From Lachnospiraceae bacterium MD329 (GTDB taxonomy: Bacteria; Bacillota; Clostridia; UBA1381): a stretch of 64,000 bases of DNA. The notes below the pieces were generated by a model that worked only from the letters and a program-made list of their open reading frames with translations, searched no databases and was not told the DNA's origin. Position 1 is the first letter of the stretch; each line of letters opens with the position of its first letter. The stretch covers positions 124,167 through 188,166 of the forward strand of contig VIQV01000022.1 of the NCBI GenBank assembly GCA_010206265.1, written 5' to 3'. Below are positions 11,645-30,977 of the stretch, in pieces. A program made the translations under genes and the position numbers.

Positions 11645-12623
11645 AATACCTGTTATAGCGGTGGTCGGACCGACTGCGTCGGGTAAAACGGGACTGGCGA
11701 TAGATGCGGCGAAGTACGTCGGCGGTGAAATTGTGAGCGCCGACAGTATGCAAATTTATAAATATATGAATATTGGTTCGGCAAAGCCTACGCCGTCCGA
11801 ACGCGCCGAGGCGGTTCATCATATGATTGATTTTCTTGAACCATACGATAATTTCAGCGTCGCGGACTATACTGAAATGGCGCACGGAATAATAGCCGAT
11901 ATATACTCACGCGGAAAAATACCTGTTATTGCAGGAGGAACGGGGCTTTATGTCAATTCAGTAATAAATGATGTGAGTTTCGGTGAGATTGATACCGATT
12001 ATGCTGTACGTGAAGAGCTGAACAAAACCGCGTCTGAAAAGGGCAATGAATATTTGCTTGAAATGCTTAAAAGCATTGATCCTGAGGCGGCAGAAAATAT
12101 GCACCCCAATAATTTAAGACGTATTGTGCGCGCGATTGAGTTTTATCGTGTTACAGGGAAAAAAATCTCGTTACATCAGGCGGAAACAAAAAAGACGGTA
12201 AGCCGTTATGAGCCGCTTATGATGTGCATTGACTGGGACAGAGAGATTTTGTACGAGCGCATAAACAAGCGTGTCGATATAATGATAAGAGAAGGTCTTG
12301 AAGAAGAGGTTAAACATCTTGTTGAAATGGGCTGTACGCGTGATATGACTTCAATGCAGGGGATAGGTTATAAGGAAGTGATGGATTATCTTGACGGTAA
12401 ATTCACACTTGAAGAAACTTCTGAAATAATAAAACAGTCATCGCGGCGTTATGCGAAAAGACAGCTTACCTGGTTTCGGCGTGATGAAAGGATACATTAT
12501 CTCAATCCGGCAAATCCGTTTGAAGAGGCAAAAACGCTTATAGACGATTTTTTGAAAAAACAGATAAAAAGGCTTGACAAGCATATTTTACTGTGTTATA
12601 ATACAATGGTTGAAAATCCGTAG
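11637..12623 (+). CDS. miaA: tRNA dimethylallyltransferase MiaA
   Basis: Transfers a dimethylallyl group to N6 of A37 in tRNAs reading UNN codons, making the substrate of MiaB. Walker A GPTASGKT, the substrate segment SADSMQIY and the later QSSRRYAKRQLTWFRRD helix are all present. The start is a TTG at 11637, inside the last codons of mutL, with AAGGAG about ten bases upstream; this gives the expected SKIPVIAVVGPTASGKT opening. Its last 17 codons overlap a strong promoter for the ribosomal genes that follow. The C-terminal residues after about 310 (KRLDKHILLCYNTM) may be dictated by that promoter rather than by enzyme function. Confidence 0.94.
   Translation: MSKIPVIAVVGPTASGKTGLAIDAAKYVGGEIVSADSMQIYKYMNIGSAKPTPSERAEAVHHMIDFLEPYDNFSVADYTEMAHGIIADIYSRGKIPVIAGGTGLYVNSVINDVSFGEIDTDYAVREELNKTASEKGNEYLLEMLKSIDPEAAENMHPNNLRRIVRAIEFYRVTGKKISLHQAETKKTVSRYEPLMMCIDWDREILYERINKRVDIMIREGLEEEVKHLVEMGCTRDMTSMQGIGYKEVMDYLDGKFTLEETSEIIKQSSRRYAKRQLTWFRRDERIHYLNPANPFEEAKTLIDDFLKKQIKRLDKHILLCYNTMVENP
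12574..12602 (+). promoter_or_regulatory. Consensus sigma-A promoter of the rplJ operon
   Basis: TTGACA (12574-12579) and TATAAT (12597-12602) have a 17-base spacer, a perfect consensus. The promoter lies wholly inside the 3' end of miaA. Confidence 0.9.
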
Positions 12624-12727
12624 ACAGTCGGCGGTTCGCGGCAGATATGCCGCAGACGTAAGTCCTACCGAGGGTGTTTGGTAATGATTATTACAAGCTC
12701 TTGGTCTACGACTGAGAGCTTTTTTAT
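12616..12727 (+). ncRNA. Ribosomal protein L10 leader with attenuator
   Basis: The leader has the L10-leader pattern: CGTAGAC (12619-12625) can pair with GTCTACG (12704-12710), enclosing a GCGGCA-GATA-TGCCGC hairpin (12638-12653) and the conserved CCTACCGAGGG segment. A terminator hairpin AAGCTCT/AGAGCTT (12695-12721) followed by a T-run comes last. GTCTACG lies in the terminator loop, so L10(L12)4 binding could alter terminator formation. In Bacillus this leader represses rplJ-rplL when free L10-L12 is in excess. Confidence 0.85.
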
Positions 12728-12792
12728 TGAGTAAGAAAGCATTACTTTTGGATTTTCAAAGGTAATATTCTTACAGGAGGTGAAAAGAAAAT

Positions 12793-27537: not shown

Positions 27538-27609
27538 TGTCCCTTTTTTGAATATAATGTCAAGTATTTATATGTGATTGAATAAACTTTAATGGAAAGG
27601 AGCTGTATA

Positions 27610-28515
27610 ATGGAAGATAGAACAGAATTATTGGTAAATAAATTACTGCATAGCTATGAAAAATATGACAATACCTGCCGTATTGACGCGGAGAGTATGT
27701 TAAGCAAGCAGGCGTTGATTGATATTGTTGAAGAGATACGCAAAATCCTATTTCCCGGATTTTTTGATAACAGTCAGGGACGGAGTGAATATATAAAGTT
27801 TTTAGTCGGTGAAAGGCTGGAATTTATACAGTATAATCTGCAAAAACAGATTGCTAAAACATTCGGAAGTCAGGATATGTGCAGTGGTTGTCATAAATCT
27901 GAAATTAATGCGAAAGCAGAGGATATTGTCTATCGTTTTTTGGATAGGCTTGATGTTATCCGCGAATATCTTCATACTGATATTGAGGCTGCGTATGATG
28001 GCGACCCTGCGGCATACAGTACCGACGAAATTATTTTTTCATACCCAGGAGTATTTGCGATTACGGTTTACAGAATCGCACACGAATTATGGCTTTTGGG
28101 TGTGCCTATGATACCTCGTATTATGACTGAATATGCACATAGTTCGACAGGCATAGACATTCATCCCGGAGCATCTATCGGTAAATACTTTTTTATTGAC
28201 CACGGAACAGGTATTGTTATTGGAGAAACAACGCAAATTGGCGATAACGTAAAGATTTATCAGGGTGTAACGCTTGGAGCGCTGTCAACGCGGAAAGGAC
28301 AGGAGTTAAAGGGAGTGAAACGCCACCCGACTATTGGCGACAATGTGACGATTTATTCAGGTACGACCATTCTCGGCGGAGATACGGTAATTGGAAATGA
28401 TGCGACAATAGGCGGTAATGCGTTTATTATAAGTTCTGTTTCCGACGGAATGAAGGTAAGTGTTAAAAATCCTGAACTCCAGTTTACAAAAGGCGGAGAA
28501 CAGGAAATTAAATAG
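27610..28515 (+). CDS. cysE: Serine O-acetyltransferase (CysE/EpsC type)
   Basis: 301 residues. Transfers acetyl from acetyl-CoA to serine, the first step to cysteine. An N-terminal helical domain of about 170 residues precedes a left-handed beta-helix of hexapeptide repeats with [17 protein letters not shown] and [20 protein letters not shown], including the catalytic His. The start at 27610 has AAAGGAG eight bases upstream; an in-frame ATG at 27592 lies before it and is rejected. Ends before a terminator. Confidence 0.92.
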
Positions 28516-28517
28516 TG

Positions 28518-28549
28518 AAAAAAGGGATTGGATAACCAATCCCCTTTTT
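28518..28549 (+). terminator. Terminator after cysE
   Basis: A-run, GGGATTGG/CCAATCCC stem with an ATAA loop, then a T-run. Confidence 0.9.
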
Positions 28550-28576
28550 GTTGTATTATAGGTATTTATTCGACTC

Positions 28577-28605
28577 TTTACATATTTCTGAAAGTGTGAT
28601 ATAAT
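28577..28605 (+). promoter_or_regulatory. Promoter of the structured RNA
   Basis: TTTACA (28577-28582) and TATAAT (28600-28605) have a 17-base spacer. The predicted start falls at about 28612-28613, exactly where the outer RNA stem begins. Confidence 0.75.
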
Positions 28606-28612
28606 CATTATT

Positions 28613-28792
28613 GCAACAACTCCAATTTAATAAAGTTACTCAAATTAGCATACGATATGTAAAAACGTGTATGCTTTGATTGTCATTGTCTATTTTGAGT
28701 AACATTATGATGGCATTGGAGTGTGTTGCAGCATTAAGTCAAGGCGGCGTTTTTAGTGCGTTGTCTGATCAAAAGCAGCGACGCACTTTTTT
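28613..28792 (+). ncRNA. Unidentified structured RNA, about 180 nt, with terminator
   Basis: Between cysE and the LRR gene there is no reading frame. The RNA opens with GCAACAACTCCAAT (28613-28626), which pairs with ATTGGAGTGTGTTGC (28715-28729). Inside, GTTACTCAAA (28635-28644) pairs with TTTGAGTAAC (28694-28703), and GCATAC (28648-28653) pairs with GTATGC (28669-28674). A terminator follows: AGTGCGTTGT/GCGACGCACT and six Ts (28755-28792). The 5' end at the promoter's start point matches a discrete RNA such as a 6S-like fold. No other promoter is seen before the gene at 28848, so a leader/attenuator role is equally possible. Confidence 0.65.
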
Positions 28793-28847
28793 ATGATTTT
28801 TTGGGGCGTCACAAAAAAATGTTGGAGAAGAAACAGGAGGAGAGAGA

Positions 28848-30977
28848 ATGAAAAAGAGGATTTTAGGATTGTTGCTTGCGGTTGTTATGCTTACGGGATT
28901 TGTACCGTGCTCGTATGCGGCGGAGATAGCCGAGGAGGGAACGTGCGGAGCAAATGCGGTGTATAAGCTTTATGATGACGGTACTCTTATAATAAGCGGC
29001 GAGGGTGAAATTAGTAGTAGATTTAGCTGGGCAGACGAGATAAGCAGTGTTGTTATTGAAGAGGGTATAACAGGTATTGGAAGGCGTGCTTTCTTTGTAT
29101 GTAGTAGTATCCAGTCTGTAATAATGCCTAACAGCCTTGTAACTATCGGAGAAGAAGCATTTGATAGTTGTGAAGGATTGACAGAGATAAGTATACCTGA
29201 AGGTGTCAGGAACATAGAAAGAGAGGCTTTTAGTTATTGTAAAAACCTTGCTCAGATAAATATGCCGGACAGTGTGAGAAGTATAGAACAGGGGGCTTTT
29301 GAAGTCACTGAATATTGTATGAATCAGGATAACTGGGAAAACGGTGTGCTATACTGCGGGAATAGTATTCTTGATTCAGATAGTTCGTTAAGAGGAGAGT
29401 ATAGTATAAGGGACAGTGTAGTATGTATTGCGGACGCTGCATTCAAGCGTTGTTCTCATTTAACATCAATAAAAATACCGAAGGGAATAACAGCTATAGG
29501 TCAGGCAGTATTTAGCGAATGCTCAAGTCTGGAATCTGTGGAAATTCCTGATACGGTAGAAAGTATTGGTGATAGTGCGTTTTTTGACTGCAGAAGTCTT
29601 GCTGAGATAACTATTCCATATAGTGTAAAAACTATAGAAGCAGGTGCGTTCAGCTTATGCGAATCTCTATCTAAAATACATATTCCTTACGGGGTGGCAA
29701 GCATAGGAGAACAGGCATTTGGATATTGTTCAAATCTTGCAGAAATAGACATTCCAAAAAGCGTAACTGAACTGGGCAGATGGGTGTTTGACGGTACGGC
29801 TTATTATTACAATCGTGATAATTGGGAAAATGGTTTGTTATATACAGGCGAACATCTTGTTGCTGCGGACAGAGATATATCTGGCAGTGTCGTAATAAAA
29901 GATGGCACTTTAAATATTGCTGATTATGCAATGAACGACTGTTATGATATAACTTCAATAACTCTGCCGCAAAGCCTGAGAACCATTGGCAACCGTTCTA
30001 TTGTGTCCAGCAATAAACTGAAGAGCATATTTGTGCCGCCGAACGTTACAAGGATAGGAGAAAGAGCTTTACCTAACAGTCTTGCGGATATAACTGTTTC
30101 AGAGGATAATAAGGAATACAGTTCTGTTAATGGGAATTTATATAATAAGGCTAAAACAGTTCTTATAAAATATGCTGGAGGAAAAACAGATAAGATATTT
30201 GAACTGCCGGACAGCGTGACAGAAATTGATGAATACGGACTTATAAATTGTTATAAATTGACGGGTGTATCAGTATCTGAAAATAATACAGCTTTTAGTT
30301 CTCAGGACGGTGTTTTGTTTAACAAGGATAAATCAGAACTGGTTCTTTATCCCTCAAGAAAAACAGACAGAAGCTATACTGTTCCTTTAACTACGGAAAG
30401 TATCAGAGCATATGCATTTTATGACTGCAGGGAACTGAAGACCCTTATAGTGTCAGAAAGTGTGAACGATATTGGAACATCCGCATTTTATGGGGCTATC
30501 GGTCTTAATGCGATATTTATACCGAGCGCTACTATATGGGATATGAATATAGGCACCAGAGCGTTTCCTAATGATGAGGATAATATAGTAGAAGTATATT
30601 TTGGAGGAGATAGCGATGATTGGGATGATTTGGTGTATACATATCGGGAGAATGATCTTTGCGGAATTTCTGTGCATTACAACGCGAATGGGATTCCTAC
30701 TCCTCTTATAGGCGAGTTTAACGCGCCGACGGATAATGGCGACGGTACATATAAAATCACCGTGCCTGTTGAGAATATTCCTTACAATTGTACAGCAATT
30801 GCGGTATTTTATGCTGACGGCGATGTATCGGAGGTAAAACAAAGGGCGGTAACGCTGACAGATACTTCGGTTGAATTTACCGCGCAAAGCAGTGCGGACA
30901 GCGCGAAGGTGTTTATCTGGGACAATCTTAAAGGAATGTATCCGTTGTGCGAGTCTAAAGCAAACAGGACTGTTTAA
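28848..30977 (+). CDS. Secreted BspA-type leucine-rich repeat protein
   Basis: 709 residues. Signal peptide at 1-25 (ILGLLLAVVMLTGFVPCSYA). Most of the protein is a run of LRR_5 (BspA/Treponema type) repeats of about 23 residues, such as IPEGVRNIEREAFSYCKNL and IPYSVKTIEAGAFSLCESL. The last 95 residues form a beta-rich module ending AKVFIWDNLKGMYPLCES, shared with two other secreted proteins here. BspA repeats often mediate surface adhesion; the target is unknown. There is no cell-wall anchor motif. The start has GGAGGAGAG upstream. Confidence 0.85.
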   Translation: MKKRILGLLLAVVMLTGFVPCSYAAEIAEEGTCGANAVYKLYDDGTLIISGEGEISSRFSWADEISSVVIEEGITGIGRRAFFVCSSIQSVIMPNSLVTIGEEAFDSCEGLTEISIPEGVRNIEREAFSYCKNLAQINMPDSVRSIEQGAFEVTEYCMNQDNWENGVLYCGNSILDSDSSLRGEYSIRDSVVCIADAAFKRCSHLTSIKIPKGITAIGQAVFSECSSLESVEIPDTVESIGDSAFFDCRSLAEITIPYSVKTIEAGAFSLCESLSKIHIPYGVASIGEQAFGYCSNLAEIDIPKSVTELGRWVFDGTAYYYNRDNWENGLLYTGEHLVAADRDISGSVVIKDGTLNIADYAMNDCYDITSITLPQSLRTIGNRSIVSSNKLKSIFVPPNVTRIGERALPNSLADITVSEDNKEYSSVNGNLYNKAKTVLIKYAGGKTDKIFELPDSVTEIDEYGLINCYKLTGVSVSENNTAFSSQDGVLFNKDKSELVLYPSRKTDRSYTVPLTTESIRAYAFYDCRELKTLIVSESVNDIGTSAFYGAIGLNAIFIPSATIWDMNIGTRAFPNDEDNIVEVYFGGDSDDWDDLVYTYRENDLCGISVHYNANGIPTPLIGEFNAPTDNGDGTYKITVPVENIPYNCTAIAVFYADGDVSEVKQRAVTLTDTSVEFTAQSSADSAKVFIWDNLKGMYPLCESKANRTV

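Follow-up and report, generated by a model that had tools for sequence, protein, structure and literature searches.

A 180-nt RNA ahead of the gene for a secreted leucine-rich-repeat (LRR) protein in Lachnospiraceae bacterium MD329 belongs to a large RNA family that is uncatalogued in Rfam, with about 20 copies in the host and many in related gut Clostridia. Judging from its sequence and that of its relatives, the RNA is probably a cis-acting leader and transcription attenuator of the surface-protein gene, one of ~20 in the genome. This layout is suggested because segment B and the 3' strand of helix P1 each have two mutually exclusive partners. The RNA lies in the window, the whole 64,000-nt stretch of DNA that was analyzed. 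The original prediction was of an unidentified structured RNA that resembled 6S RNA and might be a ligand- or protein-controlled leader. The structured RNA is real and a controlled leader is its likeliest role, while the likeness to 6S RNA was not sustained; the prediction overlooked the multicopy family across the class, as well as the exclusive pairings in the 3' half beyond the terminator.

Promoter, RNA and terminator ahead of the LRR gene

The features of the locus and the helices of the RNA are as follows.

28524-28550, + strand: terminator of the upstream gene, separating the serine acetyltransferase-like gene (27592-28515) from the RNA unit
28577-28605, + strand: sigma-70-type promoter TTTACA-17-TATAAT with extended -10, 11/12 consensus matches, same spacing in sister copies
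28612-28792, + strand: whole element, a probable structured leader/attenuator RNA, from fold energy, family model and pair conservation
28613-28626, + strand: P1 5' strand GCAACAACTCCAAT, partner 28715-28729
28629-28632, + strand: conserved AATA in the P1/P2 internal loop
28635-28644, + strand: P2 5' strand, partner 28694-28703
28647-28675, + strand: P3 hairpin, stem 28647-28653/28669-28675, AAAAACG in the loop
28660-28681, + strand: 5' partner in helix K, formed by the P3 loop/3' arm and segment A (UAAAAACG...GCUUUGAUU)
28715-28729, + strand: P1 3' strand, of which 28720-28729 alternatively pairs with the terminator 3' arm at 28778-28787 (X1)
28737-28755, + strand: segment B and U-run AGTCAAGGCGGCGUUUUUA, pairing alternatively with 28660-28681 (K) or with the terminator 5' arm
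28738-28769, + strand: antiterminator hairpin AT, 28738-28750 with 28758-28769, U-run in the loop
28755-28792, + strand: intrinsic terminator, stem 28755-28767/28776-28787, U6 to 28792
28848-30977, + strand: downstream gene for a 709-aa secreted BspA-type LRR protein (LRR_5, E 1.7e-88)

The -35 box TTTACA occupies 28577-28582 and, after a 17-nt spacer, the -10 box TATAAT occupies 28600-28605. The RNA (28612-28792, ~180 nt) folds with an energy of -56.7 kcal/mol, compared with -39.7 +/- 3.5 for shuffled sequences (z -4.9), none of 200 shuffles being as good; it scores 140 bits against the family model, which was built with this copy included. A simple scanner did not pick up the terminator; the apparent reasons are a bulged stem and a loop close to what the scanner allows. 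Promoter, stems and terminator had all been called from the sequence beforehand and were found in place, and both the proposed start at ~28612 and the terminator end at 28792 agree with the scan and the fold. Likewise, no second promoter had been seen ahead of the LRR gene, and a + strand scan from 28792 to the gene start at 28848 gave no match. The LRR protein carries a signal peptide (MKKRILGLLLAVVMLTGFVPCSYA) and its gene the ribosome-binding site (RBS) GGAGGAG; a Pfam scan of the full-length protein found no SLH domain.

Furthermore, the promoter is a family-wide feature: a strict -35/-10 pair was present in 57 of 86 sister copies, compared with 4.0 +/- 1.8 in shuffled upstream sequence. 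TTTACA and TATAAT are the commonest boxes, and most of these promoters end 4 nt ahead of the first position of the model. Promoter, 5' leader and intrinsic terminator are arranged ahead of a gene without its own promoter, both in the window and in the family. A coding function of the RNA was considered and rejected, as the 28-codon frame that begins within the window copy (ATGGCATTGG...) is, by eye, 13 codons long or closed in other copies.

A multicopy family and its downstream genes

BLASTN of 28570-28800 against relatives returned many partial matches, two of them, with ~75% identity, in another family of the class. We built a first covariance model from 15 copies and a second one with P1, P3 and the terminator only. 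The first model found 18-23 copies in the 2.7-Mb host genome and matched 53 of 70 genomes of the taxonomic family; of 391 genomes sampled across the class, 73 had at least one match to the second, these copy and genome counts being lower bounds under strict filters, from genomes that are mostly metagenome-assembled. The richest relatives hold 23 (G015) and 21 (G143) copies, and a single-contig genome of a Monoglobus-like genus holds one. In a phylum-wide sample, the model search matched two genomes, the host's and one of the same class, and found no member outside the class. A pattern scan of named genomes pointed mainly to uncultured Clostridia, Monoglobus sp. and Oscillospiraceae metagenome-assembled genomes; a few pattern matches in unrelated phyla gave no match in the model search. 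The copies share a common layout: promoter, TGCGACA-type start, P1, P2, P3, conserved GCUUUGAUU, the 3' strands of P2 and P1, GCAGCAUUAAAUCAAAGC, GCGUUUUU and terminator.

Some copies are arranged in tandem, two or three together, and each of these has a promoter and terminator of its own (G000:C67:15198/15439, C6:860/1091 and C56:66334/66112 in the host; G015:C59:10240-10884; L054). A ~115-nt dispersed element, with inverted ends GGAGGGCAGA...TCTGCCCTCC around GAACCCCCG...CGGGGGTTC, lies just past the terminator of three copies (L097, L099 and L102). A mobile element residing on phages, viruses or plasmids was considered and rejected, viral contigs giving no match in the pattern scan and phages and plasmids no blastn match with the window copy. 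It is also very unlikely that the family is a dispersed, MITE-like repeat whose palindromes mimic RNA structure. The number of copies, some of them tandem and some outside gene leaders, is what such a repeat would give; however, diverged copies show compensatory changes, the promoter is conserved exactly at the 5' end, the copies are mostly oriented towards genes for secreted proteins, and blastn with the window copy gave no match in the plasmid and phage collections.

An RBS and a long same-strand ORF begin within 170 nt after 87 of the 139 distinct copies with enough flank, and a crude rule called a signal peptide in 63 of these 87 products versus 12 of 51 window ORFs, a baseline that is itself small and crude and comes from a window holding several surface genes. 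Pfam domains in the N-terminal parts (~first 190 aa) of 82 downstream proteins comprised 28 BspA LRR_5, 8 Cu_amine_oxidN1, 5 DUF6273, 4 SLH, 3 CHAP, 3 DUF6809, 2 YpsA and 1 YAcAr. In a distant single-copy genome, the RNA precedes a secreted-protein gene with an RBS.

Copies L121, L042 and L045 precede genes for SLOG-domain proteins (YAcAr/DprA-like, YpsA), whose products are possibly sensors of nucleotide ligands. An RBS and a tiny ORF come after each of four host-genome copies, L239-L242 (G000:C1:161744, C1:172623, C18:9821 and C56:66058, all on the - strand), with no long gene next: MRLKIP (twice), MQLKIP and MKRLKIP. These ORFs differ in their Leu and Arg codons, and the pattern was found nowhere else among the 16 genomes of the genus that were searched.

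The remaining 52 of the 139 copies have no long ORF directly after the RNA; what follows them is a short ORF, a further RNA copy or a convergent gene. This counts against the leader reading, and tandem copies that each have their own promoter and terminator are odd for a pure leader. A family of trans-acting small RNAs would account for both, the terminated 180-nt RNA being the product, its two folds making segment A (GCUUUGAUU) available as a seed or concealing it, and the closeness to surface genes being secondary. We regard such a family as unlikely. The own promoter, the strong terminator, the tandem arrays, the copies before convergent genes or no gene and the ~20 copies per genome would fit it, but most copies lie directly ahead of an RBS and a gene, these genes belonging to a single functional class; an RNA that need only end would have no evident use for a conserved antiterminator/terminator pair; and covariation links segment A to the B of the same copy, as a cis pairing predicts.

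Covariation and the proposed attenuation mechanism

Compensatory changes among relatives, whose absence had been named beforehand as speaking against the structure, proved extensive. In an alignment of 117 distinct copies, P1, P3 and the terminator were paired in 97.2% of cells, and 17 of their 19 pairs showed changes on both sides; one P1 pair occurs as GC, UA, AU and CG, all four Watson-Crick types. As this alignment was fitted to P1, P3 and the terminator, leaving K, AT and X1 outside its model, partner swapping between copies was added, in which the energy of each cognate duplex was compared with 5000 random partner assignments over 93 non-redundant copies. Cognate partners were strongly preferred, with z values of -27 for P1, -40 for P2, -18 for the terminator, -17.5 for AT, -12 for K and -9 for X1, while control segment pairs gave +2.5, +1.6 and -2.0. 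Pair counts for K, AT and X1 agree with this result. K covaries less strongly than the other helices because it is mostly conserved sequence; 36 of 500 shuffles reached its count of pairs changed on both sides, a count also weakened by an A/B alignment that is ~2 columns off in some subgroups. Kinship among the copies inflates all counts, and the swapped-partner controls are the chief safeguard.

These helices cannot all form together. K and AT share B, AT and the terminator share the terminator 5' arm, and X1 competes with both P1 and the terminator. Owing to these shared strands, the six segments (P1 5', A, P1 3', B, terminator 5' and terminator 3') can form either P1, K and the terminator, or X1 and AT. 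K, a duplex of 28660-28681 with 28737-28755 (-19.5 kcal/mol), is a pseudoknot relative to P1. The antiterminator excludes the terminator, and both are conserved. AT was present in the minimum-energy fold of 91 of the 93 copies when these were cut before the terminator 3' arm, whereas full-length folds, which cannot include K, were split between the terminator (35) and AT (58), as would be expected of a poised attenuator. In RNAalifold's first consensus, the P1 3' strand formed a long hairpin with the terminator 3' arm; this was set aside as the main fold and turned out to be an alternative fold, since it covaries too.

We infer that the two folds are regulatory states, set by a ligand or a protein. 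RNA polymerase would start at ~28612 and make the long P1-P2-P3 hairpin, after which segment B would emerge. Should B fold back onto the P3 loop and segment A to give K, leaving the terminator 5' arm free, the terminator would form and transcription would stop at 28792; should B pair forward, forming AT with that arm, the terminator would be blocked and polymerase would read through into the surface-protein gene. The P1 3' strand could meanwhile exchange the P1 5' strand for the terminator 3' arm. The choice between K and AT would fall to a signal that acts at the P1-P2-P3 domain. Because A is transcribed before B, K may be the first to form, giving termination by default, with the signal freeing B for AT; the opposite sign is equally possible.

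As to where a signal might bind, P2 is free to vary in sequence and length among copies, while AAAAACG is conserved in or near the P3 loop and, in the internal loop between P1 and P2, AATA (76% of 93 copies versus 31% in shuffles). These two conserved unpaired motifs are candidates for recognition, but pairing accounts for much of the core. The P2 3' strand lies between TCAT(AC), which follows segment A, and (GT)ATGA, which precedes the P1 3' strand; the two motifs are complementary to each other in many copies, and this D/D' pairing (TCAT/ATGA) across P2 shows weak covariation (z -5).

Two kinds of signal were weighed within the attenuator reading, each of which we hold as possible but rather doubtful. 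In the first, a small signalling molecule or a cell-surface metabolite would act on a new riboswitch class and so set the surface proteome in many gut Clostridia, by way of as many as twenty leaders or more in a genome, in which six segments exchange partners between three helices (P1, K and terminator) and two (X1 and AT). In the second, the leader would respond to an RNA-binding protein or to an elongation factor rather than to a small molecule, for example as a processive antiterminator, a ribosomal-protein-like leader or a PyrR-like one. The few strictly conserved unpaired bases outside the pairings, the variable length of P2 and the many, regulon-like target genes agree with a protein, but no candidate protein was identified, and the conservation of AAAAACG in the loop and of AATA in the internal loop is aptamer-like.

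RNA regulators of large surface-protein regulons are few, and known riboswitches cover gut Clostridia poorly. If ~20 leaders per genome act in this way in many families of one class, they would reveal a signal controlling adhesins and other surface proteins, and the family offers a sequence set ready for ligand hunting.

Comparison with known RNAs

The RNA had originally been matched to no named riboswitch, and the Rfam searches bear this out. Rfam 15 at gathering scores (6S, riboswitches, T-box, raiA, HEARO and others), a check proposed with the original prediction, gave no match to the RNA in the window or at 13 further loci. At relaxed E-values, the window element and 14 loci gave only sub-threshold, unrelated matches on the RNA, and no 6S or riboswitch match occurred among the sister copies tested. 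We found no description of this RNA in the open-access literature, nor in the passages searched of papers on structured RNAs in microbiomes and in 26 and 50 genomes.

The RNA resembles 6S RNA (RF00013) in its ~180 nt, its paired ends and its own promoter. However, the 6S covariance model does not match it, even at relaxed thresholds, and the host genome has a separate, genuine 6S RNA elsewhere (G000:C1:142843-143036, 69 bits). In addition, the variable P2 pairs the interior and the conserved central bubble of 6S RNA is absent. A 6S paralogue binding RNA polymerase, which length and paired ends might suggest, is therefore a negligible prospect.

Riboswitches of the fluoride, ZTP and preQ1 types are pseudoknot-gated and act on transcription. 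The present RNA appears similar in that a segment after P1 would pair back into the sensor domain (K) and compete with the antiterminator, but it differs in size, helix order and sequence, and no Rfam riboswitch family matches it. PyrR and ribosomal-protein leaders are protein-dependent attenuators and share the logic of anti-antiterminator, antiterminator and terminator, but no such Rfam leader matches the element. The window's only Rfam leader is the ribosomal protein L10 leader (RF00557) at 12600-12734, with 44.3 bits, slightly over the cut-off.

Among published proposals, the nearest is the 'SLH' candidate for a riboswitch, described from Thermovirga lienii (Stav et al., 2019, PMC6429828), which we compared by its published description, identity being neither shown nor excluded. 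According to that description, it has 80 examples in Synergistaceae, Clostridia and Negativicutes, ~60% of them before SLH genes (PMC6429828). In our family, LRR genes dominate, SLH domains occur in 4 of 82 proteins (N-terminal parts only), and hundreds of copies fall in one class. What the two have in common is that each is an orphan RNA motif ahead of surface-protein genes, with examples in Clostridia (PMC6429828).
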